From assembly GCA_016183235.1 (NCBI GenBank), contig JACPFA010000033.1:62001-126000 (forward strand): a stretch of 64,000 nt of DNA, written 5' to 3'. The DNA comes from Deltaproteobacteria bacterium. GTDB lineage: Bacteria > UBA10199 > DSSB01 > JACPFA01. Position numbers and translations under genes: made by a program. This document shows, in pieces, positions 12,384 through 63,905 of this stretch (positions within the stretch are counted from its first letter, which is position 1; the number at the start of each line of letters is the position of its first letter). Below the pieces are notes generated by a model. That model had not been told where the DNA came from. It was given only the letters and a program-made list of their open reading frames with translations, and ran no database searches.

Positions 12384-15300
12384 ATGAAAGTGGGGCCGAA
12401 GTTGCCTACCATTGATCAACAATATGAAATCATTAAAGAATTGGGCTCAGGCCTACAATCTACGGTTTTCTTGGTCAAAAAAACAAACCAATGCCTTGCC
12501 TTAAAGCTTTTTAAAGAGGCCCTGCCTGGTTACGATGTTAATGCGACCCTCGAAGCGATTAAGGCGGAGTGCCAAGTTTTAAAACAGCTCCATCACCCTG
12601 GCATCGGAAATTTAGAAGAATTTGGCTATGACCCCAACCGGCAACAATATTATTTAGTTTCAGAATATATTGAAGGCAATAATCTCTACGAGGCCACCCA
12701 CGAAGCCCATTTTGAAACCGTTGAAAATCTTTTCATTCAGGCCTTACGTGCCCTAGCTTATATCCACAGTCGAAAAATTTTTCACTGCGATTTAAAACCT
12801 GAAAATATTCGGGTTCAGCCTTCCGGGGTTTTGAAAATGATCGACTTCGGATTGAGTGGTTTAAAAACCAACAACACTTTTTTTGGTACCCCGGCTTATG
12901 TAGCACCCGAATTAGCCTTTGGCTTTGCACCCAACAGTCGCTCTGATCTTTATAGTTTAGCAGTTACTTTTTATGAATGTATCTTACGCATCAATCCGTT
13001 TCGCAGCCCTACTTTAACCGAAACTTTAGGGCTGCAACAATCGCTACATCCCACTGAATTAAGAAAAATCAATGTTCACATTCCGGAATATTTTTCTACT
13101 TTGATTGCCAGGCTCATGGCAAAAAATCCCAGCCGCCGCCCAGGTAGTGCGGCTTTAACTCTTAAGGCGCTCAATCAACTCTCTGGCAAACAAATCCCTT
13201 TAGAAACCGAAGCCACTCTGCAAAGCTATCTCCCGACCGACACCGAACTCATCGGGCGCAAAGAAATCTTACGTTCTTTTGAAAATATTTTAGCAACGCC
13301 CCAGAACTCTACCCTAATTTTATGGGGTGAAAGGGGCAGCGGGAAAACGCGCCTCTTAAAAGAATTAAAATTTTTAGCCCAACTCAAAGGGATTTTTACC
13401 CAAAGTTTGAGTAAACCTGCCTTGCCTTTAAAAGAAGAAGCTTGTGTCTTATTTTTCGACAATGCAACTCCTGATGCTTTAAAAAACCTCCACTTACTAG
13501 TTTTAAGTTTTCGCTTTCCTCTTTTGATCGTGGCCACCTGTCACCTGGCCCCCGAAGAAATCGAAGGCTACAAATTTGAACTGCCTCCCTTTACACCTGA
13601 TGAAATCAAACAATACCTCACCTCACTCACGGGCTTAAGCGATCCTCCGCTTCAATTATGTCAGGAATTACAAAAGCGAACCCATGGCAATCCTTTATTC
13701 ATCACGCATCTTTTACAAGAACTCATCACTCAAAAGCGCCTTTTTGATGACATGGGGCGATGGTCTAAAGATACCTTTGAAGATTTGGGAGTGGAATTTG
13801 AAAACCTTCCCCCCCCTGAACAAATGAAACACTACTTTGACAAACTTTTAACTCATCTTAAACCGGATGAGCTTCTCATCTTAAAGCTCATGGCTATTCA
13901 TCCTAGCTCGGTTAATCAAAAAGACCTACGAGCACTTCTTCCCAACTCAGAGCCTCTATTACTTAATCTATTGGGAAAAGACCTCTTAGCAAGACTTGAT
14001 TTCACCTACCACTTTACTAATCCACTTTTAAAAACCCACTTACAAAGCAAACTAAAAGATGAAGCCCCTTCGCTACATCAACGTTGGTTAAAAATAATTA
14101 AACCAACCGATCCTACTACTTATCTCCATCATGCAGGTAGAATTGAAAACAACGAAGCCGCAGCCAAAGAGCTTCTCTCATTGGCAGAACATCAATTAAA
14201 AGAGAGCCAGCTCGATAACGCCTTACAAAATATTCAACTCGCTTTATCTTACAAGCTCCAAGAGGTTGAACTGCAAGCTAAATTACTTAACTTACAGGGA
14301 ATTATTTACGAAAAACTTAATCTTTTTACTCAAGCCCTCCAAACCTTTGACCAAATTCGTTCGCTCTTACCCAAACTTAAAAATCTGGCCTCTAACCTAC
14401 CTTGGAGAATCGAATTACTAGAAAAAATCGGCGTAACTTACTTGCGGGGTGAGCAACTCGAAAAAGCCAAAGAATGTTTTGTGGCAGGGCTTGCCTTACT
14501 CGAAGATAAAGATGATTTTTTAACCAGGCAATTGCTCTTTAAAAATTATTTGGGTCGAGTGCGAATTAAAGAGGGTAACCTCCAAGAGGCGCAAAACATT
14601 TTTCAAACCACCCAAGATATTTGGGCAAAACTGCCACAAGACCGCCAAGCCCAAGTGGTTAACAATGATTTAGGCAATGTGCTGCTCATGCAGCAAAACT
14701 TTTCAGCTGGCCTACAACAATTTCAATCAGATTTAATCTTCTTTAAAAAAATTGCCCATGCCCAACTGATTGCTCGCACCCTCTATAATTTGGGAGAAAC
14801 TTATTTTCACTTAAAAGATTATGAAAACACCATTCATTGTTTGAAAGAATGCGTGGAACGCTCCCATGAAATAAAAAATTATGAATTGTTACTCAGGGCC
14901 TACAATGGCCTAGGTAATGTTTATAATGTAAAAAACGACCTACAGGAGAGTCTGCATTATTACTCCAGAGCATTAAGAATCGCTGAAAAAACCCATGAGT
15001 TCCAAAGCCAAGCTGCCATTTCGACCAACATGGGGAATATTCAAAACCAATTGAACCAACTCGAAGAAGCCTTGGTGCTATTGAAGGGCGCCATTAACAT
15101 TATAAAAAGTTTAGGCGGACGAACCGCCCATGAACAATATTTTGAAATTCGTGCCCTGGTTGAATTAGCCGATGTGTACTTAAAGCTAGAACGATGGGAA
15201 GAAAGCCGCGATTGTTTGCGCGATGCCTTGCACTTAGCTGAAAATTCTGAAGCCAACCGCAATCAAATTTTTTGGATCAAACTCGGGCAATTGAAATATT

Positions 15301-17273
15301 CATTGCTCCGCCAAGAGACCGATCGAGTCAAAGAATTGCAACATGAGTTAACTCAAAGCGCTACCGAAGAATCTCAACATAAAGAAATTAAAACTCTGCT
15401 AGAAAACTTTTCTAAACCACCTGAAAAAAAATCGATACCTGCACCCATGGGTCACAAAAAAAGGGATACCCGCATGGAAACTCTAACCGAACTAGAATAT
15501 CAAAAATTATTAAGCCTGATTAAATTGATTAATTCTGAACACGATCTTGATTTTGTCTTAAAATCAATTCTTCACCATGCCTTGGAATTGTCTGGCGCTG
15601 AAAGAGGCTTAATTTTATTACTCAATGAATCTGATCAATTAGAAATAAAATGTTGGGTCAATATGGAGGTCGACCCTTCTTTAGAACAAATTTCAACCAC
15701 CATTGCTCAAAAAGCCATCGATAATGGGCAAACAATTAAAACCGACAACGCCTACGATGACGAACGCTTTAATCAATACCAGTCGGTTTTAGTTTTAAAA
15801 CTACGGTCGATTCTTTGCTTGCCCATTTACTCTCGTAACCGCACGATTGGGGTGTTGTATCTCGACAACAAATTTCGAGCCAATGTGTTTGGCAAGGTTA
15901 ATCAAATACTGCTGGAAGCTTTTTGCGATCAAACCGGTATTGCTATTGAAAATGCTCACCTCTTTAAAAAACTACAAGCCGCGACTCTCCAGTTAGAAGA
16001 CAAGCTGAAAAAAACTCAAGACGAAGTGGAGCATTATCAAAATTTAATTCAAGAAGGTGGGGCGGGGCCTACTCGCTATAGTTACAAAAATATTGTGTCT
16101 TCTACCAAAGCCATGCATGAAATTTTTCAAGTCATGGATAAGGTGACCAACACGAATCTCAATGTTTTTATCCAAGGAGAAACCGGAACCGGAAAAGAAC
16201 TCATCGCCAAGGCCCTCCACTACAACCATAAATCTCGTGCTGACAAACGGTTTGTGGCCATTAACTGTGGGGCCATTCCTGAAAATTTAATTGAAAGTGA
16301 ATTGTTTGGTCATAAGGCAGGGGCGTTTACGGGGGCAATCAAAGATAAAAAAGGATTATTTTTAGAGGCCCACGGCGGCACTATCTTTTTAGATGAAATC
16401 GCCGATCTTCCTTTGAACTTGCAGGTTAAATTGCTTCGGGTTTTACAAGAAAATGAAATCACCCCGCTAGGTGGCTCCCAACCAGTTAAGGTTGATGCCA
16501 GGGTGCTATGTGCCTCGCATAAAGATTTAAACCAACTTACAAGTCTTGGGAAATTTAGAGAAGATCTTTATTACCGGCTTTGCCAAATCAAATTAACCCT
16601 GCCACCCCTAAGAGAGCGAAAAGAAGATATCCCACTATTGGTAGAAAAATTTGTGGGGGATTATGCTGAACAACACAAGCTTAAACAATCCCCTAAAATT
16701 AGTAGCGCTTTCATGAAAATCTTGATGGAACACGCTTGGCCAGGCAACATTCGCGAATTAGAGAATATTGTTCATGTCTCTTGTGCACTTTCTGATGGCA
16801 AAGTCTTAACGCCCGAGTGTCTACCCAGTCATTTTCAAATTCGTAACCAAACCGATCAAACCATCGACCCAACCCGCTACGTTGAATCTCAAAAAATTAA
16901 ACCCGTGGTCGAAACCCCCATTGATACCCATAACCCTTACGACCCTAACTTAGCTTGGCAAGATTATGAACGGCTTGTCTTTGCCAAGGCCTATGCCCAG
17001 TGCAATTTTAACCCCCAAGCAACAGCTAAAAGCCTGGATGTGTCTATTGCAACCATCTATAAAAAAATTAAAGAATTTGGATTGTCGAACCCTCACGCCG
17101 CAGTCTTCCAAGAAAAATTTCATTACGACACTCAGAAAAATCTTAAAGACTATCTAGAGTGCATCGTCAAAGCAGCCCATCTAGCTTCAGGAGAACGCCC
17201 TTACACCGCCATCAAATGGCTAAAAATTTCTCAGGGGCATTATTATAAAGTACTTAAAGGTTTAAGGGAATAA
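12384..17273 (+). CDS. Ser/Thr kinase - ATPase - TPR - GAF - sigma-54 activator - HTH fusion regulator
   Basis: 1629 residues. Kinase at about 14-280: HCDLKPEN (catalytic Asp136), IDFGLSG, GTPAYVAPE. P-loop ATPase with GERGSGKT at about 315. TPR repeats about 600-1000 (LEKAKECFVAGLALLE, YFHLKDYENTIHCLKE). GAF about 1040-1190. Sigma-54 AAA+ domain with GETGTGKE (1265), GAFTGA (1313-1318) and GGTIFLDEIAD, then a Fis-type HTH near 1560-1600 (ATAKSLDVSIATIYKKI) and a further HTH-like segment at the end (AIKWLKISQGHYYKVLKG). GAFTGA being intact means it can contact sigma-54. It should activate sigma-54 promoters in response to an unknown ligand and phosphorylation. Related kinase-GAF-sigma-54 fusions are known in Myxococcota. 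Monocistronic. Confidence 0.92.
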   Translation: MKVGPKLPTIDQQYEIIKELGSGLQSTVFLVKKTNQCLALKLFKEALPGYDVNATLEAIKAECQVLKQLHHPGIGNLEEFGYDPNRQQYYLVSEYIEGNNLYEATHEAHFETVENLFIQALRALAYIHSRKIFHCDLKPENIRVQPSGVLKMIDFGLSGLKTNNTFFGTPAYVAPELAFGFAPNSRSDLYSLAVTFYECILRINPFRSPTLTETLGLQQSLHPTELRKINVHIPEYFSTLIARLMAKNPSRRPGSAALTLKALNQLSGKQIPLETEATLQSYLPTDTELIGRKEILRSFENILATPQNSTLILWGERGSGKTRLLKELKFLAQLKGIFTQSLSKPALPLKEEACVLFFDNATPDALKNLHLLVLSFRFPLLIVATCHLAPEEIEGYKFELPPFTPDEIKQYLTSLTGLSDPPLQLCQELQKRTHGNPLFITHLLQELITQKRLFDDMGRWSKDTFEDLGVEFENLPPPEQMKHYFDKLLTHLKPDELLILKLMAIHPSSVNQKDLRALLPNSEPLLLNLLGKDLLARLDFTYHFTNPLLKTHLQSKLKDEAPSLHQRWLKIIKPTDPTTYLHHAGRIENNEAAAKELLSLAEHQLKESQLDNALQNIQLALSYKLQEVELQAKLLNLQGIIYEKLNLFTQALQTFDQIRSLLPKLKNLASNLPWRIELLEKIGVTYLRGEQLEKAKECFVAGLALLEDKDDFLTRQLLFKNYLGRVRIKEGNLQEAQNIFQTTQDIWAKLPQDRQAQVVNNDLGNVLLMQQNFSAGLQQFQSDLIFFKKIAHAQLIARTLYNLGETYFHLKDYENTIHCLKECVERSHEIKNYELLLRAYNGLGNVYNVKNDLQESLHYYSRALRIAEKTHEFQSQAAISTNMGNIQNQLNQLEEALVLLKGAINIIKSLGGRTAHEQYFEIRALVELADVYLKLERWEESRDCLRDALHLAENSEANRNQIFWIKLGQLKYSLLRQETDRVKELQHELTQSATEESQHKEIKTLLENFSKPPEKKSIPAPMGHKKRDTRMETLTELEYQKLLSLIKLINSEHDLDFVLKSILHHALELSGAERGLILLLNESDQLEIKCWVNMEVDPSLEQISTTIAQKAIDNGQTIKTDNAYDDERFNQYQSVLVLKLRSILCLPIYSRNRTIGVLYLDNKFRANVFGKVNQILLEAFCDQTGIAIENAHLFKKLQAATLQLEDKLKKTQDEVEHYQNLIQEGGAGPTRYSYKNIVSSTKAMHEIFQVMDKVTNTNLNVFIQGETGTGKELIAKALHYNHKSRADKRFVAINCGAIPENLIESELFGHKAGAFTGAIKDKKGLFLEAHGGTIFLDEIADLPLNLQVKLLRVLQENEITPLGGSQPVKVDARVLCASHKDLNQLTSLGKFREDLYYRLCQIKLTLPPLRERKEDIPLLVEKFVGDYAEQHKLKQSPKISSAFMKILMEHAWPGNIRELENIVHVSCALSDGKVLTPECLPSHFQIRNQTDQTIDPTRYVESQKIKPVVETPIDTHNPYDPNLAWQDYERLVFAKAYAQCNFNPQATAKSLDVSIATIYKKIKEFGLSNPHAAVFQEKFHYDTQKNLKDYLECIVKAAHLASGERPYTAIKWLKISQGHYYKVLKGLRE

Positions 17274-49190: not shown

Positions 49191-49244
49191 TTGACACACT
49201 ACATCTTGTGGTTTAGGCTGTAGCTCAACCACTACATATTGTGT
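49191..49244 (+). promoter_or_regulatory. nrdJ promoter with two NrdR boxes
   Basis: ACACTACATCTTGTGG (49196-49211) and CCACTACATATTGTGT (49229-49244) match the NrdR box pattern and are 33 nt apart, about three helical turns. TTGACA at 49191 and TAGGCT at 49214 (17-nt spacer) make a plausible promoter overlapped by the first box. NrdR represses RNR genes when dATP is high. No nrdR gene is in the window. The rest of the gap from 48920 to 49190 is AT-rich and shows nothing I can name. Confidence 0.75.
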
Positions 49245-49270
49245 TTTTGTTGGGAAGGAGGACTCTATTT

Positions 49271-52200
49271 ATGGCAACCAAAACAGCTATCCGTCAAACT
49301 TCGGTTCGTAACCGTAAACAAACTTTAGACGTAGCCCAAAAGGGCCTTAGCGTTAGGCGTTTATTTACTCGAGCGGGGGTTGATGCTTACGAAAATATCA
49401 ACTTTGTTCAACGTCAGTCCACTATTATTGACCCTGACGGATCCGTAGTTTTTCAAATGGATGCCGCTGAAGTTCCAGAAACTTGGAGTCAATTGGCCAC
49501 CGATATCTTGGTCCATAAATATTTTCGTAAACGCGGTGTTCCTGTAACCGGTGGCGAAAATTCGGCTAAACAAGTTTGCCATCGTATTGCCCATGCCATT
49601 CGCCAAGCCGGTGAAGCCTTTGGGGGATATTTCAAAGACGAGGCCGAAGCAGAAAGTTTTGAACAAGAACTTAAACACATTCTCATTTCCCAGAAAGGCG
49701 CCTTCAACTCTCCGGTTTGGTTCAACTGTGGGTTGTGGCACGAATATGGCATTGCGGGGAGTGGGGGTAATTTTGCTTGGAATCCAGAGACACGACAAAT
49801 TGAAATGATGGCTAATTCTTACCAAGCTCCCCAATGTTCGGCTTGTTTTATTCAATCGGTTGATGATGACCTGATGAGTATTTTTGATCTCATCAAAAGT
49901 GAAGCTCGATTATTTAAATACGGCTCGGGCACGGGCACGAATTTTTCAAAAGTTCGTGGCAGACAAGAACGGTTATCAGGTGGCGGCACTTCGTCGGGTC
50001 TCATGAGTTTTCTTGAAGTCTTAGATAAGGGTGCTGGTGCTACCAAAAGTGGTGGCACTACCCGGCGCGCTGCCAAAATGGTCTGCCTCGATATGGACCA
50101 CCCTGAAATATTAGATTTTATTAACTGGAAGGTTCGCGAAGAAGACAAGGCCAAGGCCCTCATTGCAGCCGGCTATCCCAGTGATTTTAATAGCGAGGCC
50201 TACAAAACTGTTTCTGGGCAAAATTCTAACAATTCATTGCGCGTAAACGATGAATTTATGCAAAAGGCTTTGAGTGGGGGGCAATGGAACACAACTTTTC
50301 GCACCACAGGTGAAGTTTGCGAAAGCTATGATGCCAGCCACTTGTTAGAACAAACTTGCACGGCCGCCTGGCGCTGCGCTGACCCTGGCTTACAATACGA
50401 CTCCACCATTAATAAATGGCACACCAGCAAAAATTCGGGCCGCATTAACGCAAGCAATCCGTGTGTGACTGGAGACACCGTTGTTGCCACAACTGAAGGG
50501 CTCAAGCCTATTATAGAACTTGTTGGGAAATCGGCAGATATTTTAAGTTTTGATGGGCGGATCGTCCATACTTCAGAAGTTTTCGCCACAGGGTTCAAAC
50601 CTGTTTTTGAACTTAAAACTCAAAGTGGTTATACACTCAAGTTGACTGAAGATCATAAAGTTTGGACTGTCAACCGTGGTGATGTCCCTGCCATAGAACT
50701 AAAAGATACCGACCAGTTTGTTTTAGTTCCAGGGCACTTTGGCACCACTCACTTAGAACAAAAAATGGCTGAATGGATTGGCCTTTGTGTTGGAGATGGC
50801 TGCAAGGCCAAAGATGCCCAAGGGCTTATCACAGTCACCATGGCAAGTGAAGAGAATGAAATTTTACAAGAATATGTCGATTATTTAAATACTCTCAAAG
50901 CAGATCGAAAAATTGCCGGTGTTCGATATACTGAGACAGGAGTTCGCACAGCCACTTCGGCACAAGTTATCAAAGAAGTGGTCGATAATTACGCAGTCCT
51001 TGATGAAGGTTCCGCTAAAAAAAGATTCGCCATCGAAGCATTTCAACTCGACAAATCAAGTGTTGCAGCCATTTTACGTGGTCTATTTACCACCGATGGC
51101 ACGGTCGCAAACTATGGAGAAAAATCACAATACGTTGCCCTTGATTCGACGAGTCTTGTCCTACTTCAACAAGTTCAAAAAATGCTTCTTTCTTTTGGTA
51201 TCAAGTCAAAGATTTACGAAAACCGCCGGGCAGGAAAACTCAACGCCCTTCTACCTGACGGAAAAGGCAACGCAAAAATCTATCCCGTACAAGAGATCCA
51301 TTCATTAAGAATCAGTCGTAGCTCGCGGATTTTGTTTGAACAATTTATTGGGTTCCATCCCCGCTCACAAAAGTCAAAGGCATTGCAAGAACTCAATCAA
51401 AAGGTCGGTGTCTATCAAGACCATTTAATAGATACTTTTAAATCTCTCACTCCCCTCGGTATTCAAAAAGTTTATGATTTACGAGAGCCTCTAACTCACC
51501 ATTTTGTTGCCAACGGTTTGCTAGTCCATAATTGTTCTGAATATATGTTTTTAGACGACACGGCCTGCAATTTGGCATCGGTTAACTTGAGCAAATTTTT
51601 AGATGAAGCAGGTAATTGGGATGTTGAAGGTTACCGCCATACAGCTCGCATGCTCTTCATCGCCCAAGAAATTTTGGTGGATTTTAGTTCTTACCCCACT
51701 TCTAAAATTGCCCTCAATAGCCATGACTATCGACCCTTAGGTTTGGGTTATGCCAACCTGGGTTCTTGTTTGATGCGATTAGGCATCCCCTACGATTCAG
51801 AAGCCGGCCGTGCCATTGCGGCTGCCCTCACGGCCATTCTTTGTGGACATGCTTACAAAACTAGTAGCGAGATGGCCGCTAATAAAGGCCCCTTCCCAGG
51901 CTACGAAAAAAATCAAGAACCCATGGTAGAGGTCATGAATTTGCACCGTGATCACGCTTACAAAATTGATGAGCGGCATTGCCCAAAAGATTTATTAAAA
52001 GCCGCTCATGAAGATTGGGACGCCGCGGTAGAATTGGGCGAAAAATTTGGCTATCGCAATGCCCAGGCCACGGTTTTGGCGCCCACTGGCACGATTGGTT
52101 TATTGATGGATTGTGACACCACAGGGATTGAACCCGATTTTTCTTTGGTGAAATTTAAAAAGCTGGCCGGCGGCGGTTATTTTAAGATTGTCAACCAATC

Positions 52201-53524
52201 GATTCCGGCGGCTTTAAAAAAGTTGGGTTATTCGGCGCGTGAAATTGCTGATATTGTCACTTATATTCGTGGCACATCTTCACTCCGCAATGCCCCGTTC
52301 ATCAATTTTGAAACTTTAAAGCAAAAAGGCTTTACTGAAGCTGAGTTAGATAAAATCGAATCTAAACTCGAAGGGGTGTTTAACTTAAGCCAAGCGTTTT
52401 CAGTATTTAACATCGGAGAAGAAACTCTTGCCCGTTTAGGATTTCAAAAATCCAAAACCTCAGACGCCAACTTTAATTTACTCAAAAGTTTAAGTTTTAC
52501 CGATGAACAAATCGAAGCAGCTGAAGTTGTTATTTGTGGCACCATGACCATTGAAGGGGCTCCTCACTTGAATCCTGAGCATTTGCCCATTTTTGATTGT
52601 GCCAATAAATGCGGCAAAAAAGGCAAACGCTTTCTCTTACCGATGAGTCATGTGAAAATGATGGCCGCAACGCAGCCCTTTATTTCGGGGGCCATTTCTA
52701 AAACGGTGAATCTTCCTCATGAAGCCACTGTTGAAGATATCCGCCAAATTTATGTAGAAGGTTGGAAGTTGGGCCTAAAGGCCATTGCCCTTTATCGCGA
52801 TGGTTGTAAAGCCAGCCAGCCTTTATCTTCGGGTACAGAGCAAAAAGAAAAGACGGAGCCGGCGCCTGAAGTCATTGCACCCAAACCACTGGAACGAAAA
52901 CGTCTTCCGCTCAAGCGCCGTGGTTTCACACAAGAGGCGCGGGTTGGCGGGCATAAGGTTTATTTACGCACCGGCGAATATGAAGATGGTGCCTTGGGTG
53001 AAATTTTTATCGACATGCACAAAGAAGGTGCTGCCTATCGCAGCATGATGAACTGCTTTGCCATTGCGGTTTCCTTAGGCTTGCAATACGGGGTCCCACT
53101 CAAAGAATTTGTAGATGTATTTACCTTTACCCGTTTTGAACCTCAAGGCTCGGTAGATCATCCTAATATTAAATTTGCCACCTCCATCATCGATTATATT
53201 TTCCGAGTGATCGGCTTGGAATATATGGGCCGAACCGACTTTGTGCAGGTGAAACCTGAATCGGTTACCCCCACCAGTATTGAGCCAGTTCAGTCGCTGC
53301 CGCCTGCAGCAGCAACTGAAAGTTCTCCAAAACTAGAATTAATCCAGGGCCAAAAAGAAGAAGACCCACAATTAGCCGCAAATAGTTTGGGCAAGAGTTT
53401 GAACAGTCAACTTTCTACCATGATGGGTGATGCCCCCTTCTGCGACAGTTGTGGTCACATCACGGTGCGCAATGGGGCCTGCTATAAATGCCTGAATTGC
53501 GGCAATTCGATGGGCTGTTCATAA
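49271..53524 (+). CDS. nrdJ: Vitamin B12-dependent (class II) ribonucleotide reductase with intein
   Basis: 1417 residues before splicing, about 1060 after. Start at ATG 49271 because AAGGAGG precedes it; an in-frame ATG at 49241 lies inside the second NrdR box. Catalytic features: first active-site Cys in [17 protein letters not shown] (interrupted by the intein between Pro and Cys), [22 protein letters not shown], and a C-terminal Cys-rich tail FCDSCGH...[13 protein letters not shown] that re-reduces the active site. Makes dNTPs using adenosylcobalamin with or without oxygen. No ATP-cone is seen at its own N-terminus. A degenerate paralogue with an ATP-cone-like region is at 19510-22074. 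Confidence 0.96.
50462..51532 (+). mobile_element. Intein with LAGLIDADG homing endonuclease in nrdJ
   Basis: 357 residues from Cys (CVTGDTVV, block A) to the terminal His-Asn ([10 protein letters not shown]), followed by Cys of the extein. Block B is seen as [11 protein letters not shown]. Two DOD-type motifs, [10 protein letters not shown] and [10 protein letters not shown], mark the endonuclease. The insertion point is immediately before the catalytic Cys of NPCSEY, so the reductase is inactive until the intein is removed. All splice-junction residues are present. Confidence 0.95.
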
Positions 53525-53572: not shown

Positions 53573-53926
53573 TTAAGGGGAGGGGGATTTTAGACCCTCA
53601 CAAGCTTGGTAAATTCTCTCTAATATTTCTGAGGTATTAGTTAGCACTTCACGATTCCAAAATCTCAGCACCTTATATCCTTGCTTCTGAAACCACTGAT
53701 CACGTTGTTGATCTTCCACTGTCTGTTCTGCATGTTGTCCGCCATCACACTCGATAATCAAGCGTTTTTCATAACACACAAAATCTACAATATAATCTCC
53801 AATAGGTTCCTGTCTTCTAAATTTGAGGCCACTGAATCTTTTCGCCCTCAGATGATACCATAAACGATTTTCAGTATCAGTTGATTGGCTCCTTAACTTT
53901 TTTGCAAAAGAGGTCATTGGTTTCAT
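53573..53926 (-). CDS. DUF559 (very-short-patch-repair-like) endonuclease
   Basis: 117 residues. PD-(D/E)XK-type core: LRAKRFSGLKFRRQEPIGDYIVDFVCYEKRLIIECDGGQHA (IVDF and ECDG are the catalytic strands), then FQKQGYKVLRFWNREV. The family is related to Vsr nucleases. Substrate unknown. It is closely bracketed by CCCTCTCCC/GGGAGAGGG palindromes (53551-53590 and 53968-54041), which suggests the gene and repeats travel together. The start may be MKP or, three codons on, MTS. Confidence 0.88.
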   Translation of the reverse strand: MKPMTSFAKKLRSQSTDTENRLWYHLRAKRFSGLKFRRQEPIGDYIVDFVCYEKRLIIECDGGQHAEQTVEDQQRDQWFQKQGYKVLRFWNREVLTNTSEILERIYQACEGLKSPSP

Positions 53927-56465: not shown

Positions 56466-59400
56466 ATGGTGTGGATATTTTTAGGGGATTTAGGTTCCGT
56501 TACTCGCACGGTGGGGCCCGTTGCCAATCAGCCGGAAACGCCACCTCCCCTCGCTCCTGCTCCGAGCGTTTGGTCGCTCATTACCTCTCCACAACTTTGG
56601 GCTGCCAATGCGGGCAATGGGCAACCGCCTAGGCCTGGGGTTTTTGGTACAGCCCAGGCTTATACTGGACAAATCGCTCCAAACCAAGCAACCGGCACTC
56701 CCATTGACCTGACCCCTTTCATGGATATCTTAGAAAATGGGATTCGTAACGAAGCTGATTTAAAATTAGCGCATCAACTATTCATGTTGATTGATCCCGA
56801 AGATGCGGGAAAGATTTCGGAAGCGGCAAAGGGGGTACCGATAAAATTTGTGGAAGTAGACCCTCGTAGCAACATACGTGGAGGTACGCACGTTACGTTT
56901 GACCAGGATATCAGCCGGAAAACTGCGGCACAAGCCCAGAGAATTACCCTTCATACCTCTGGCACTCAAGGTACTAATATCGTCACTCTACTTCATGAAC
57001 GAGTGCACGCAGCGCCCTACTCTTACTTACCACTAGACTATCATTTAGACCTACCCGACATTCCTGGGTCCGATGCAACTTTTCACCAAATCTACCACGC
57101 CGTGCTTGCCAACAAATACTACGACGAAGCCATGGCCTTTTCATCGGAAACCCGCTTCGCTATGGCGTTTCACCAGACCGCTGGGCACAATTTATTTGAA
57201 TTTAAGTCCCTTCAAAATTATTTGGAGACTGAGGAGGTCATAGACTCTGCTTATGCACACTATGGCTTTGAAGGAGTTTACTGGGCCATACGGGAAAGTG
57301 AGGCCTACCTCCCTTACAAAATTGGGGCCCTTTATCTGGCCTTGCTTCGCAAGACTAACCAACAAAGTTACCCCACTTGGGGCGAAATCCTAACCCTAAT
57401 GAATGTTGAGGAAAAAGACGGTAAATTAATCATTACCGCAAAGGCCTTGGGAGATTTTTATCAAAAGCACCTAAAACCGCTGATTGACCGCCACCAAACT
57501 CGGATGGGTTTAGCCGCTTTAAGCCTCGCCACCATGACCGGTGAAGCAGCGAAAAAAAGAGATCGTGCTTTGGCATTTTTAATGGGCAGGCTTTCTCCTG
57601 AAGAAGCACAAGATTTTTTACGCAAAGATTTTGATTTTGTGGTCACACAAGTAGGAGCTCTCATGGGAGATCCACTTGAAGAAAAGGCCAGGGCCTCTAA
57701 ACAAGCAAAAATCACTGAAGTGGATATTGAGCCTCGTCCTAAACCCCTTCCAGCCAACAACCCTAATCTTCTTCAAGATGCCCCTGAAATGGCTGCTGAT
57801 ACTATTGAAATCCTAGGTAAGGAAGCCGAATTAGTGACAAAAATTTTAGCTAGCTCGATTCAAGGAATTATCTCCCAATGGAAAATCGTGCTCCACTTTG
57901 CTGAATACACCGATCCTCTTACCGCTGCCAAGGTCTATGGCAAACTCATGGGAATCATGCAAACTGAACCCAAGTCCAATACCCAATGGCAATTAGGGAT
58001 TTCGCTACTGCGCTCAGGATATATGGCTGAAGGTATGAGCATGATTGCCGAGGCCTTTAGAGAAAAACCCCTGAAATCCCACCGGGATAGTCGTATTCAC
58101 ATCACAGAGGGTGACATTAAAATCCTGGTCGATGCCGGCGAGGCCGCATGGGTTGGAGATGTGCTGGCCATCGCAGAAAAAACTTTGAGAGACCTGGAGC
58201 AAAAACGTGAACTTGACTATAGCTTAGCTGAGGTGGTTTATGATTTGGGAATTGTATTGGGTGATCTTCAGGCACTACCCCATTCAACTGAAACGGAGTC
58301 TTTGAAAAAGAGAGCCTATGACTTACTCGCCCGATCAGTGGATCTATTGCAAGGCACTTTCATTGGAAGAGTCAAAGATACTATTAAATATAGCCCTACA
58401 GAAAATGAAACTGTCGAACAAGCTTCCCAAAGAAATATTCTTTTTCAACTAGGACGATGTATTAGATTCTACTTAGCCGATCCTCAGCAAGTCTCCCGAG
58501 GTTTAGAAATTTTCTTTTATCACGATCAACACTTTAAAATATTAGAACCCTATAATCGGAATGGTCTCTTTACAGATATTTTAATAATAGACGTTGGCAA
58601 GTGTGGTTCTAACACCGATAGGCAAAGATTATGGGATTTTTATTTTCGGTCTTATGCTACCCCACTCAGTCAACATTTAGAATACTTGGCGGATTTAGCC
58701 TTGGGTTCAACCGATCTCGATCTGCAACGAGCCGGGCTTGAATTTTTGCTCAAACCACAAACGGGCTTTACAGAAATTGCCCGTTGGAATGCGATCTTAA
58801 AAAATCTCGCCTCCTTTCCATCAAATGATCAAGCTTCTATTTTAAAAAATGTTTACCAACAAATTCTTTCTACCAAATCTTCTTTTGAGGACTCATTTGG
58901 AGCAAAAACTTGCCTGTTCAAGCTTATCAAGCTCGCCTTGGAAGGAGGCCAACGAGAGATGATTCAAGATTTTGTTGACCGATGGAAAAGGGAAAGCACA
59001 CCTTTCCACCGTGAAAAAACAATCGGGCTATGGGTTGAAACTTTATCTGCCATTCTTAATCAAGGGCAAGGCCTAGACACCCTTGTGGAACGTATTGAAC
59101 ACGACCTAGTCGAAACCCGTAGGCAATTTGACAAAACCGCCCTGTTGGAAATTCTATCCCTGCTTAGCGAAGCTTCAAGTAATGGCAGTTGGCTAGCAAA
59201 TTTTGCCGGAAAAGAATCTTGTCTCTTGCGTTTGGCCATGGCGTGCATTGACAAAACCCTCCAAAGCATAGGTGGCCATTCAACGGATTATGCCTATCAA
59301 TTGAGTCCGCTCTTTGATGCCCTAAAAACCTTGCCGGTTTCTGACCAAGAAAAAGATAAACTCTTTGCCCACCTCATCGAGAAGGCCTCGCCTGAGCCTG

Positions 59401-62400
59401 GAGTTTATGCCAAATCTCTTGAAGGATTGGAAGGCCTGTTAGAAGCCATCCGAGTCATCCCCTTTATTTTAGAAAGCCCCAACTACCCCCTTGCCCGAAA
59501 AATCCTAATTAATCGGCTGGCAGCCGCTGCTAGAGCCTTGCGTTACCATGGTGAAGATTTTCGTATGACCAGGACCCTAGAAGGCCTCCAATGGGTTTGT
59601 GAAAGGCTAACCGATGATGCGCTCGCCCCTTCCAACCCAGATTTGAAAAATTTACGAACTACCGATGAATATCAAAGGGCGCTGGCTTACTTACGAGCCT
59701 TTGTTTCACCTGAGGTTCGCCCAAGCTTGAACCCTGGTGAACTTAAAGCTGCTTATCAAGCTGCCCTGCGCGAGGGTGATACAGCCACGCTTCAGGGATT
59801 GAGTGCTGATATAAAAGAATTGGTAGCTCATGAATGCCAGACCTTTAGAGGAGAAGGTTACGATGGTAAACCTAAAACCATTGACGAATTACGCCAACTC
59901 TTTTTTGCACAAATTTATGAGGATTGGCAAAGAGCCTACGCTACAGGTGAAGAGGCCATGGCAGAAACTCTGTTTGAATTATGGAGTTCTTCAAACGATC
60001 CCCGAGAGGCCAAGGTAAAAAGGCTTTTTTTCTTAAGAGAGTTGGCTAACCCTTCTTTAAGCCTAAAATGGAAACGCCTTATTTTTGCCAAACTCAAGGA
60101 AACTGACACCATCTCGGTCTACGCAGTTCATACTGCCGAAACCCTCAGTAAAAATGGTGAAACCGAGCAGGAAAATCTTTTTTACCAAATGTTTGAGCTC
60201 CTTAAAAGCCGTGACTTAAGAAATGGCGGGGATTTTTGGCTGAACCTGATAGCGCTGTTACCCCCTGATGAGGCACGACAATTTCTACAACGCTGCCGTC
60301 TCCAGGTTCATCATTCCACCACAAAGTTTGATTTAGCGAAGCCCATGGATTGGTTAGTGTATATGGGTGAATCTGATTATACAGATAAACGGACTTTGGA
60401 ACGGCGCAGCTCTATTCTTTTTGCTGCCCTTCACTTGGCTGTCGTCATAGAGAAAAAAGGTATTACCCACTTAAACCGGGAAAAATTGCTAGCCGAATTT
60501 TTGGCCCTTGTACCCACCTTCCCCTGGCAATACCGTTATCTAAGCCAGCATGATTTTGGAGAGGTTTTAGAACTATTACAAAGGGCTAAGTTACCTACCG
60601 CAGAAGTAGCCGAGGCTCTCATTGCTCATTTCCCAAAAATACAAACAGAATATGATTGGCTCTACGACAAGATCCGCCTAGGCCAAGTTAAATTACCCCC
60701 TTTCTTTGAAGAACGGGATATTCTAACCAGGCACCTTTTAACCTGGATCTTTTTAGAATTTATTGAAGGGGAACAAAATCCCTTATTAGTAGAATTGAAA
60801 AATGCAAAAAATTTCGGCGAAGCTTTGCGTATTTTTATAGAAAAGACCGGCCTAGAAAAAGTGGGGCAGTTTTTGAGCTTTTGGCCAGAAGTGCCTCTAG
60901 AAATTCGCCAAGAGCTAGTAAAATTACAAAGCAATGTAGAGCCTAGTCATTTTGAAGAGGTCAAGGCAACCATCCGTGAACAATTTGCAGGTAGTCCATT
61001 CGTTGATGAACTCATTACCAATCTTGAAACATACCACGAGGCAGGAACTGCTCTTATCGGTTCAGGCACCATTGGTGAAGTTTATCGATCGGCCCTAACC
61101 ATCGACGGTCGAAGGCAAGAAGTAGCCATTAAGGTCGTTCCCAAATCCAAAGAAGATAAATTTAAAACCGCTTTATCTAAACTTCAAAATGTGGCCCGAT
61201 TTTTGGAACTCCACAGCGGACGCCTGCCTGGTGCTCAGCAGGCCAAACGTTTGGTAAACTTTTTCTTAGAAATGGTACGCCCAGAATTTGATCTCACCCA
61301 AGAGGCTCAAAATGCCGCGGCCATACGGGCCCATAAATCGTCTGGTATTGATCTCCCTGAGTATGTGATTGATGGAGAAGGCAAACCACTGGTGCGAGCA
61401 AAGGCTAGTGTCCAAAAATTCATTCAAGGTATTCCCCTCTCTCAAATCCCTGACCATGCCACCCGACAACTAATTTTAGACAAACTGCAAGAGGAGTTGA
61501 TGAAGCAGGCCTTGGAACAGGGGCGGTATCATTCCGATCTACAGCCCGGCAATGTGCGAGTACAAATCGAGGATGACGGCACTTATAAAATTTGGCTCTT
61601 AGATTTTGGCCAAGTGGGAGAATTATCCGGGTTTGAACAAAACCAGGTACGGGAATTCATGGGTTCCTTTATGGAGTTAAACGAACATCCCGACCAACTG
61701 GTAAATGTTTTAGAACAAATGGGCACCAAACTGGCTGATTATGATCGCACGCTTTTGCTAGGAGAACTTATTGAAATCGGCACAAGCTGGGAAGCCGATC
61801 TCAACCATCTTTCTGAATTGATCAGCAGAATTTTTAAGGCCTGTCAACAACATGGCCTAGAAATCAACCTGCCTTACCTTCAATTACTCAAAGGCATGGC
61901 CACATTTGAAGCCCTCCGTTCTACGGCAATGGAAGCCCCTGACCAACCTGCCCGCATTCCCGTTACCGAACTTCGACCCATGGAAGAACCTACTAAACCA
62001 GATCCCGCAAAACCAGAAATACCCAAACCTACATTTCCTCCCAAACCAGATTCACCCTGGCTTACCGCCCTTAAAGGATTCTGGAAAGAACATGTGACAA
62101 CATATGGTGAGCGCGCCTTGGCAGAAAAAGCTCGCATCGTTGAGGCATTGAATCAACATTTTGCAGGCGAATTGAGCCCAGAAGAAATCAATAAACTTTT
62201 TGATCGGCTTTATGATCCGATGGGTAAAGCATTTACCGTGCGCAGTAGCTCGGGTGAAGTTTTTGAAAACTTGAACCACGTTGAAGCGTTATTGCGAACT
62301 GCCGTTGAACAAGGCAAAGGCAACACCGTCACGATCGAAGATTTCCTCGTGCAAATCGAAGGCCGCAAAGATGGGACCTTAGGGCGTTTTCAAGAAGCAA

Positions 62401-63905
62401 GTTTTAAAGAAATTCTCAAATCCCCTATTTGGGTAGAACACCCCATGGGCGGTGCAACCACTTTTATTATCGCCGATATTTTATCCGAAGCCGCCATGGG
62501 CCGGTGGCAGCATGCCAGCCCGTTACATGCCGGGCTCACGTGGGCAGAACTAGCCGCCGTGGGTGGCGGGAGTAAAAAGATTTTCGAAGCAAGCTTCGAA
62601 GCTTTGGAAACAAAATTGAAAGCTCAAATGCCGATCGATCGCTACAAAAGTTTTGTTGGAAATAAAAGATATCTTGCTATGAAACGTGGGCTTATTAATC
62701 ACTCTGGCACTTACTTAGCCCTCGCTTTTATGCAAATGATTGCCACGGGTGAGGTTAGCTTCAAGGACTTAGGTAAAATGGGTTTAATTTTCACCGCTAG
62801 CCACACCGTAACTGCGGCCGTAATGAAGGGACTGTCGCTTGTTTTAAAAGGTTTGAAGGGCACAGGGCTTGGAACGGTGGTATCAACCATCATCGATTTT
62901 TATGTCTTCAAAAAAATCGAGGCCTCGGTTTCAAGTATCATGCTTAGCTTAGATATGAACAAACCCATCGAAGCCATGGAGACAAGCGTTGCTAAAATTC
63001 GTGTGAATCAGGATGGTGAAGTTGATTACGAGGCTTTTAATAAAGCCTTTGGTGACTTAGTTACACTGAAAACGCAAGACAATGCAGCCGCTTTGGCGTT
63101 GCAAAAATATCAAACCAGGCTCGATGAAATTGCTCATCACAATATTTTTCTGCTGCATCGCCTCTTGTATCAACCCGAAGTGATTCGTGGTCAATCAGAA
63201 TTAGTTGCCAAGAGGCGCGCCCTCGACCCCAAACTTTTTAAAACCCACGCCTTTGCCATTGCCCACAATCGATTGACTGAGCTTCCTTTAGAACTACGCA
63301 ATTATGTCTCGGCCGCTCGAACTCAAGGCCAAAAGCTCACGGTAGCAGCCATTGAAAACGATCGGGAATTAAAATCATTGGAAACAGAATTTTTAGACCA
63401 CTGTAATGAACTTGACCCCATGACCGCCATTGCACTTCGAGAACAACTTGGCGCCTTACATACTCAAGCCAAAACACAAGCCCTCACTAAAAGCTGGGGC
63501 CTAGCCGACCAAAACATCGCAGGCCTTTTGACCGAGGCTGCTCTCTTGGCTAATCAAAAAACTGCAGAATCAGAACGCCAAACTTTTATGGCTACCTATA
63601 AACAGCGCTACACCGATTGGGATAAAAAAGACCTGCTCATCAAAACTTTTTGGAACTCTTACCCCAATGATCCTTATTACGGCGCCCATCAACAAGCAGA
63701 AAATTTACAATTAGCTTCTGCATCGCCTGAAACAGCAGCACGCGAATTAGACCTTGGCTGGTGGAAAGACCTTTCACTACCCGACCTTTACGTTCTCAAA
63801 GACTATGTGAACGAATCCAAAGCCACCCCACCCTCAACACCAGGCTTTGAAGCCATGGCAGCAGGTATTCAAGTAGCCTTAATTGACATGGCACCTTTGG
63901 ATTAA
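56466..63905 (+). CDS. Giant protein with HExxH motif and UbiB/ABC1-like kinase domain
   Basis: 2479 residues; the ATG at 56466 has AAAAGG immediately before it and an in-frame stop 10 nt upstream, so no earlier start exists. No clear signal peptide. Region 160-300: TNIVTLLHERVHAAPYS gives HERVH (177-181), a zincin-like metal site, with ESEAYLPYKIG further on. About 400-1500 is helical-repeat-like with no known motif. About 1520-1760 is an ABC1/UbiB-type kinase: GSGTIGEVYR (1532), VAIKV (Lys1556), FIQGIPL, HSDLQPGN (1689-1696), LLDFGQVG (Asp1713). A Pro-rich linker near 1840 and a C-terminal part with hydrophobic helices (about 2080-2150) follow. Function unknown. Confidence 0.85.
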   Translation: MVWIFLGDLGSVTRTVGPVANQPETPPPLAPAPSVWSLITSPQLWAANAGNGQPPRPGVFGTAQAYTGQIAPNQATGTPIDLTPFMDILENGIRNEADLKLAHQLFMLIDPEDAGKISEAAKGVPIKFVEVDPRSNIRGGTHVTFDQDISRKTAAQAQRITLHTSGTQGTNIVTLLHERVHAAPYSYLPLDYHLDLPDIPGSDATFHQIYHAVLANKYYDEAMAFSSETRFAMAFHQTAGHNLFEFKSLQNYLETEEVIDSAYAHYGFEGVYWAIRESEAYLPYKIGALYLALLRKTNQQSYPTWGEILTLMNVEEKDGKLIITAKALGDFYQKHLKPLIDRHQTRMGLAALSLATMTGEAAKKRDRALAFLMGRLSPEEAQDFLRKDFDFVVTQVGALMGDPLEEKARASKQAKITEVDIEPRPKPLPANNPNLLQDAPEMAADTIEILGKEAELVTKILASSIQGIISQWKIVLHFAEYTDPLTAAKVYGKLMGIMQTEPKSNTQWQLGISLLRSGYMAEGMSMIAEAFREKPLKSHRDSRIHITEGDIKILVDAGEAAWVGDVLAIAEKTLRDLEQKRELDYSLAEVVYDLGIVLGDLQALPHSTETESLKKRAYDLLARSVDLLQGTFIGRVKDTIKYSPTENETVEQASQRNILFQLGRCIRFYLADPQQVSRGLEIFFYHDQHFKILEPYNRNGLFTDILIIDVGKCGSNTDRQRLWDFYFRSYATPLSQHLEYLADLALGSTDLDLQRAGLEFLLKPQTGFTEIARWNAILKNLASFPSNDQASILKNVYQQILSTKSSFEDSFGAKTCLFKLIKLALEGGQREMIQDFVDRWKRESTPFHREKTIGLWVETLSAILNQGQGLDTLVERIEHDLVETRRQFDKTALLEILSLLSEASSNGSWLANFAGKESCLLRLAMACIDKTLQSIGGHSTDYAYQLSPLFDALKTLPVSDQEKDKLFAHLIEKASPEPGVYAKSLEGLEGLLEAIRVIPFILESPNYPLARKILINRLAAAARALRYHGEDFRMTRTLEGLQWVCERLTDDALAPSNPDLKNLRTTDEYQRALAYLRAFVSPEVRPSLNPGELKAAYQAALREGDTATLQGLSADIKELVAHECQTFRGEGYDGKPKTIDELRQLFFAQIYEDWQRAYATGEEAMAETLFELWSSSNDPREAKVKRLFFLRELANPSLSLKWKRLIFAKLKETDTISVYAVHTAETLSKNGETEQENLFYQMFELLKSRDLRNGGDFWLNLIALLPPDEARQFLQRCRLQVHHSTTKFDLAKPMDWLVYMGESDYTDKRTLERRSSILFAALHLAVVIEKKGITHLNREKLLAEFLALVPTFPWQYRYLSQHDFGEVLELLQRAKLPTAEVAEALIAHFPKIQTEYDWLYDKIRLGQVKLPPFFEERDILTRHLLTWIFLEFIEGEQNPLLVELKNAKNFGEALRIFIEKTGLEKVGQFLSFWPEVPLEIRQELVKLQSNVEPSHFEEVKATIREQFAGSPFVDELITNLETYHEAGTALIGSGTIGEVYRSALTIDGRRQEVAIKVVPKSKEDKFKTALSKLQNVARFLELHSGRLPGAQQAKRLVNFFLEMVRPEFDLTQEAQNAAAIRAHKSSGIDLPEYVIDGEGKPLVRAKASVQKFIQGIPLSQIPDHATRQLILDKLQEELMKQALEQGRYHSDLQPGNVRVQIEDDGTYKIWLLDFGQVGELSGFEQNQVREFMGSFMELNEHPDQLVNVLEQMGTKLADYDRTLLLGELIEIGTSWEADLNHLSELISRIFKACQQHGLEINLPYLQLLKGMATFEALRSTAMEAPDQPARIPVTELRPMEEPTKPDPAKPEIPKPTFPPKPDSPWLTALKGFWKEHVTTYGERALAEKARIVEALNQHFAGELSPEEINKLFDRLYDPMGKAFTVRSSSGEVFENLNHVEALLRTAVEQGKGNTVTIEDFLVQIEGRKDGTLGRFQEASFKEILKSPIWVEHPMGGATTFIIADILSEAAMGRWQHASPLHAGLTWAELAAVGGGSKKIFEASFEALETKLKAQMPIDRYKSFVGNKRYLAMKRGLINHSGTYLALAFMQMIATGEVSFKDLGKMGLIFTASHTVTAAVMKGLSLVLKGLKGTGLGTVVSTIIDFYVFKKIEASVSSIMLSLDMNKPIEAMETSVAKIRVNQDGEVDYEAFNKAFGDLVTLKTQDNAAALALQKYQTRLDEIAHHNIFLLHRLLYQPEVIRGQSELVAKRRALDPKLFKTHAFAIAHNRLTELPLELRNYVSAARTQGQKLTVAAIENDRELKSLETEFLDHCNELDPMTAIALREQLGALHTQAKTQALTKSWGLADQNIAGLLTEAALLANQKTAESERQTFMATYKQRYTDWDKKDLLIKTFWNSYPNDPYYGAHQQAENLQLASASPETAARELDLGWWKDLSLPDLYVLKDYVNESKATPPSTPGFEAMAAGIQVALIDMAPLD

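Follow-up and report, generated by a model that had tools for sequence, protein, structure and literature searches.

A giant protein joining a putative zinc-peptidase domain to a UbiB-type kinase with a glycine-containing nucleotide loop

The window analysed here, a 64,000-nucleotide stretch of a contig from a Deltaproteobacteria bacterium, encodes a 2479-residue protein in which an amino-terminal HExxH domain is followed by a long, helix-rich middle region and a UbiB/ABC1-type kinase domain. That a peptidase-like motif and a UbiB-type kinase are joined in one protein, as proposed in an initial annotation, is confirmed, and the combination is conserved in relatives. The protein and these relatives, called type I giants here, are a conserved family, restricted within our sample to one uncultured, Deltaproteobacteria-like class. 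As judged by motif alignment, the nucleotide loop of their kinase appears to bear, naturally, the alanine-to-glycine change that activates human COQ8A/ADCK3 in the laboratory.

Architecture and distribution of the type I giants

The gene is one uninterrupted open reading frame with an ATG start, upstream of which the open frame extends for just three more codons. Its features are the following (window coordinates, strand):

56466..63905, +: type I giant, a fusion of putative zinc peptidase and UbiB kinase, 2479 residues (open reading frame)
56643..57425, +: HExxH peptidase-like domain, residues 60–320 (conserved with seven relatives; no Pfam or NCBIfam match)
56994..57008, +: HERVH, residues 177–181, putative zinc-binding and catalytic motif (H, E and H invariant in eight members)
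57126..57128, +: Glu221, putative third zinc ligand, gluzincin-like (invariant in eight members)
57423..60785, +: helix-rich middle, residues 320–1440, of which about 424–540 are TPR-like (homology among type I members; composition)
60801..61925, +: UbiB/ABC1 kinase domain including the UbiB-specific amino-terminal extension, residues 1446–1820 (profiles, motifs)
60858..60869, +: KVGQ, residues 1465–1468, the UbiB KxGQ motif
61059..61082, +: GSGTIGEV, residues 1532–1539, glycine-rich loop replacing the UbiB alanine-rich loop
61530..61553, +: HSDLQPGN, residues 1689–1696, catalytic loop
61599..61610, +: LDFG, residues 1712–1715, metal-binding motif
61953..63902, +: proline-rich linker followed by a 600-residue carboxy-terminal extension, residues 1830–2479

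The only domain recognised by Pfam in the protein is ABC1 (PF03109). The highest mean Kyte-Doolittle value over 19 residues is 1.32 and, because no such stretch reaches 1.6, the earlier description of the protein as soluble-looking is fair; no signal peptide is obvious and no transmembrane segment is seen in the sequence. Proline and glycine are scarce in the long linking stretches, which look helical by simple propensities, in keeping with what had been annotated, and match no Pfam repeat family. The proline-rich linker covers approximately residues 1830–1880, and the extension beyond it has no relatives in the 290 genomes searched.

The first search for relatives, in 60 related genomes, revealed, within the class, giant open reading frames of 1862 to 3175 residues that share this kinase; the full-length protein, used as query against genome contigs, found none. 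The named relatives come from metagenome-assembled genomes labelled "Deltaproteobacteria bacterium" and "Bdellovibrio sp.". The two sub-groups of the family can be aligned end to end by hhalign (probability 100), in 1707 columns that extend through the whole kinase, and the helix-rich middle of around 1000 residues is homologous among the members. Type I giants are present in ten of the 46 class genomes and in none of the 339 genomes sampled outside the class. With a profile of the amino-terminal domain, nine of the 46 class genomes were matched, eight of them including the HExxH part; the aligned sequences of the domain have diverged too far to be searched for by pattern. Its sole matches in the 339 outside genomes, weak ones in G177 and G365, are confined to the TPR-like part and were rejected. 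A profile of the kinase, for which at most four candidates per genome were scored, matched 11 giants in the ten class genomes with E-values of 1e-141 to 1e-165 among 385 genomes, and the best match beyond the giants was 1e-63. As the profile was built from the giants, their own scores are necessarily high, and the information lies in the gap that follows. The remaining matches are mostly ordinary UbiB open reading frames of 440 to 760 residues, mostly starting around model position 100. PF03109 matches in many class open reading frames of 1000–1700 residues cover only model positions of about 140–220; these appear to be ordinary Ser/Thr kinases, comparable to that of window positions 12384–17273, and were discarded.

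In the type I gene of G041, one in-frame TAG (L043:9807-9809) separates the middle region from the kinase, which may reflect a broken gene, a protein made as two chains or an assembly error. At the loci compared, no gene neighbour is common to the window giant and its relatives; the initial annotation had noted no partner genes beside it. The patchy distribution shows only that the giant is accessory.

The amino-terminal HExxH domain

The HERVH motif reported at residues 177–181 is present in the translation of the open reading frame. By itself it is weak evidence, since about 11% of shuffled proteins of the same composition contain an HExxH, and it is the conservation in relatives that makes it real. 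Nine type I members with a readable amino-terminus were compared, the amino-terminus of the G025 protein being cut by a contig end. In eight of these nine the motif is found at the homologous place, as HERVH, HERFH, HEILH (in two), HELLH, HEIFH, HEIAH or HELFH. Of about 490 alignment columns, ten are invariant, and these include His177, Glu178, His181 and Glu221, the last located 40 residues past His181; both the glutamate of the motif and a putative downstream metal ligand, whose conservation the annotation had left to be checked, are thus retained in all eight. The window domain shares only 15–31% identity with its seven HExxH-containing homologues, in which the motif is invariant and at the same position, and this refutes a coincidental occurrence of the motif in so long a helical protein, a reading to which we give next to no credence despite the frequency of the motif in shuffled sequences. 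Homology within the family is independent of the motif, because it is supported by pairwise BLAST over the domain (E-values of 1e-46 for the window protein against G038 and 1e-79 for G020 against G004) and by the end-to-end alignment. The exception among the nine is the protein of G027 (L035:10254-15833, +), which retains the middle and the kinase and lacks the HExxH domain; the peptidase part is therefore not indispensable and can be lost or replaced.

This HExxH family has no entry in Pfam. Pfam and NCBIfam yield nothing for it at E < 0.03, its best peptidase match is SprT-like (E = 1.1, in one member), and the M48 model PF01435 does not match the window domain. A PDB sequence search with the domain profile gave COMMD2 as the sole match (E = 0.001); it lies in the helical part and was taken as chance. 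The conserved HExxH and downstream glutamate fit the layout of gluzincins, clan MA(E), with Glu221 as the putative zinc ligand, and from these residues we infer a zinc-dependent, gluzincin-type peptidase. This layout resembles that of the M48 peptidases (Ste24, HtpX, Oma1), which differ from the window domain in matching PF01435 and in their membrane helices.

The kinase domain and the type II giants

The kinase-like block with nucleotide-binding motifs described in the initial annotation is borne out by profiles and by the presence of every catalytic motif. PF03109 matches residues 1486–1740 with an E-value of 1.4e-21 (77 bits, cut-off 22.9), and the NCBIfam UbiB model TIGR01982 matches residues 1446–1816 with an E-value of 6.6e-32, its 110.6 bits being far below the equivalog cut-off of 487.55. 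A relative of solved structure is the "probable conserved ATP-binding protein ABC transporter" of PDB entry 5yjz (E = 6.9e-10). In addition to the motifs listed above, VAIK is found at residues 1553–1556 and PEFDLTQE at 1606–1613, so that the KxGQ extension, VAIK, ExD, HxDxxPGN and DFG follow each other in the order of UbiB/ABC1/COQ8 (ADCK3) proteins. Throughout type I, KxxQ, VxxK, the ExD region, HxDxxPGN and DxG are retained, and a motif table has the lysine, aspartate, asparagine and metal-binding aspartate in all of these type I kinases. The glycine of KxGQ is missing in most members (KLLQ, KLAQ, KVAQ, KWFQ), with the lysine and glutamine kept, while the window protein, unlike these, retains the full KVGQ.

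The nucleotide loop is where the giants depart from UbiB. The window kinase does not have the alanine-rich loop but a full GxGxxG, GSGTIGEV. At the third loop position, which in the motif alignment is equivalent to Ala339 of ADCK3, ten of the 11 type I kinases have a glycine, whereas all 17 ordinary UbiB proteins compared, that of E. coli included, have an alanine (ASASLGQV, ASASIAQV or AAASIGQV). The other type I loops are GSGTIGEC, GSGSIGDV, ASGTIAEI, [KS]EGTI[GA]G[VI] and RAGSIGKI, with ASASMGEI in G025. In ADCK3, according to a review, the A339G substitution alone reverses the preference for ADP and permits autophosphorylation, and removal of KxGQ enhances this further (PMC4718504); the mutant has since been used as a hyperactive control (PMC7877690). 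The giants also differ from UbiB in that they have no membrane anchor and in that their kinase is part of a chain of 1500–3200 residues with a peptidase-like domain.

A maximum-likelihood tree calculated without the type II proteins described below places the giants beside ordinary UbiB, and one branch separates all 11 type I kinases from the ordinary UbiB proteins (support 100/98); the relative nearest to the window protein in this tree is G027. Adding type II gives support values of 91/83 (type I) and 95/89 (UbiB) and sets type II apart (100/100). Because some rows sit on long branches, the precise order of branching is uncertain.

Scanning the class genomes with PF03109 also uncovered a second form:

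L105:6283-10818, -; L106:1-4656, +; L107:2778-7313, +: type II giants, M48 domain and ABC1-like kinase

These proteins, of 1512 residues in G044, at least 1552 in G034 and 1512 in G026, all have an amino-terminal HExxH and are mutually homologous in the amino-terminal domain, the middle and the kinase. They are restricted to these three class genomes among the 385 searched. Their amino-termini match Pfam M48 with E-values of 7e-10, 6e-7 and 0.011, the last failing the cut-off, and the HExxH, a downstream ExxxD and other M48-like residues are conserved. When the amino-terminal domains of the two types are compared with hhalign (E = 0.1), the overlap is limited to 22 columns at the HExxH helix. 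The kinases can be aligned (hhalign probability 96); in type II, DRN or DRT replaces DFG and the second glutamate of the ExD..E region is missing. All three type II loops, GGGS[LM][MV][TS]V, have a glycine at the position of Ala339. An 885-residue ABC1 open reading frame of G044, its amino-terminus cut by a contig end, has alanine there and was not counted. Together, type I or type II giants are found in 13 of the 46 class genomes, including G027, which lacks HExxH, and G025, truncated at its amino-terminus. The combination of a putative zinc peptidase, a long middle region and an ABC1-like kinase is thus present at least twice in the class, in two forms.

Proposed function, alternatives and other open reading frames

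For the observed architecture we propose, at roughly even odds, a soluble, cytoplasmic and self-contained peptidase-kinase with coupled sites. The amino-terminal domain would act as a zinc-dependent peptidase of the gluzincin type, and the kinase would bind ATP and transfer phosphate, as a real kinase and not in the ADP-preferring mode of UbiB. The helical middle would recruit the substrate and couple the two sites, a coupling that we purely infer. Phosphorylation of the protein's own chain or of a bound substrate might then switch peptidase action on or off; put differently, the kinase may regulate the peptidase or mark its substrates. More tentatively, and with some doubt on our side, the giants may represent a new class of bacterial signalling enzymes that arose at least twice, once with the novel HExxH domain and once with M48; within one chain, a zinc peptidase and a UbiB kinase re-activated by nature would control each other. 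If so, the alanine-rich loop of UbiB can evolve back to a true kinase loop. It has long been asked what this loop is for in UbiB/COQ8 proteins and whether they act as kinases in the first place. In the lineage described here, nature appears to have made A339G itself, in a kinase tied to a peptidase. Substrate, partner and regulatory logic can be tested within one polypeptide.

The kinase might instead keep the job of UbiB, that of an ATPase whose targets are isoprenoid or quinone lipids; the giant would then be an enlarged UbiB that stands in for, or helps, the ordinary protein. Its assignment to the UbiB family by profile and the retained KxGQ-type residues are consistent with this, as are the presence of UbiA in all ten type I genomes and the absence of ordinary UbiB from seven, absences that are tentative because the assemblies are 83–98% complete. 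However, giant and ordinary UbiB coexist in the window's genome, G010 and G027, many class genomes have neither protein, and the giants lack carboxy-terminal membrane helices. Furthermore, the alanine-rich loop and KxGQ, which restrain kinase activity and are critical for Coq8 function in yeast (PMC4718504), are altered in the giants, and we consider this reading unlikely. A pseudo-enzyme scaffold, in which an ATP-binding, kinase-like domain and a metal-binding domain sit on a helical framework and serve only as switches, structural or sensory, seems more improbable still. As protein kinases, UbiB proteins often perform poorly (PMC4718504), HExxH is lost in G027 and the type II kinases have altered motifs, but the type I kinases keep all their catalytic and metal-binding residues, which is unusual for dead enzymes, and HExxH and the glutamate are invariant wherever the domain exists.

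An effector, cargo-sorting or predation role had been suggested for the protein. Its large size, the presence of both peptidase and kinase and the patchy occurrence would suit a secreted or cell-to-cell delivered factor, yet it has no obvious signal peptide or transmembrane segment, no secretion, adaptor or immunity gene is conserved nearby, and the viral contigs searched contain no match. The core is also conserved from end to end between families, with no variable tip, and a defence library gave only kinase-region matches (E = 0.002–0.03). These results lend the suggested roles no support, and we regard a delivered effector or predation factor as very unlikely.

Returning to the coupled peptidase-kinase, no UbiB/peptidase fusion was found in the literature, only the co-occurrence in plastoglobules of Arabidopsis, where several ABC1 kinases and the M48 peptidase PGM48 are present in one particle (PMC3635846, PMC12587418). 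The likeness is an analogy only: the plastoglobule proteins are separate and reside on plastid lipid droplets, unlike the giants, and nothing points to a common origin of the two arrangements as wholes.

Several other open reading frames were noticed. About 4.6 kb downstream of the giant's gene (L061:6505-14337, -) lies another giant, of 2610 residues, whose only Pfam domain is a Cro/C1-type helix-turn-helix near residues 2188–2241. At window positions 49241–53524 (+), a ribonucleotide reductase-like protein of 1427 residues contains an apparent intein (CVTGDTVV ... VHN|C junctions), and a DUF559 endonuclease-like open reading frame (53573–53926, -) adjoins it. Finally, window positions 12384–17273 (+) encode a 1629-residue regulator that combines Ser/Thr kinase, AAA, TPR, GAF and sigma-54 activator domains; comparable kinase open reading frames of 1000–1700 residues seem to be numerous across the class.
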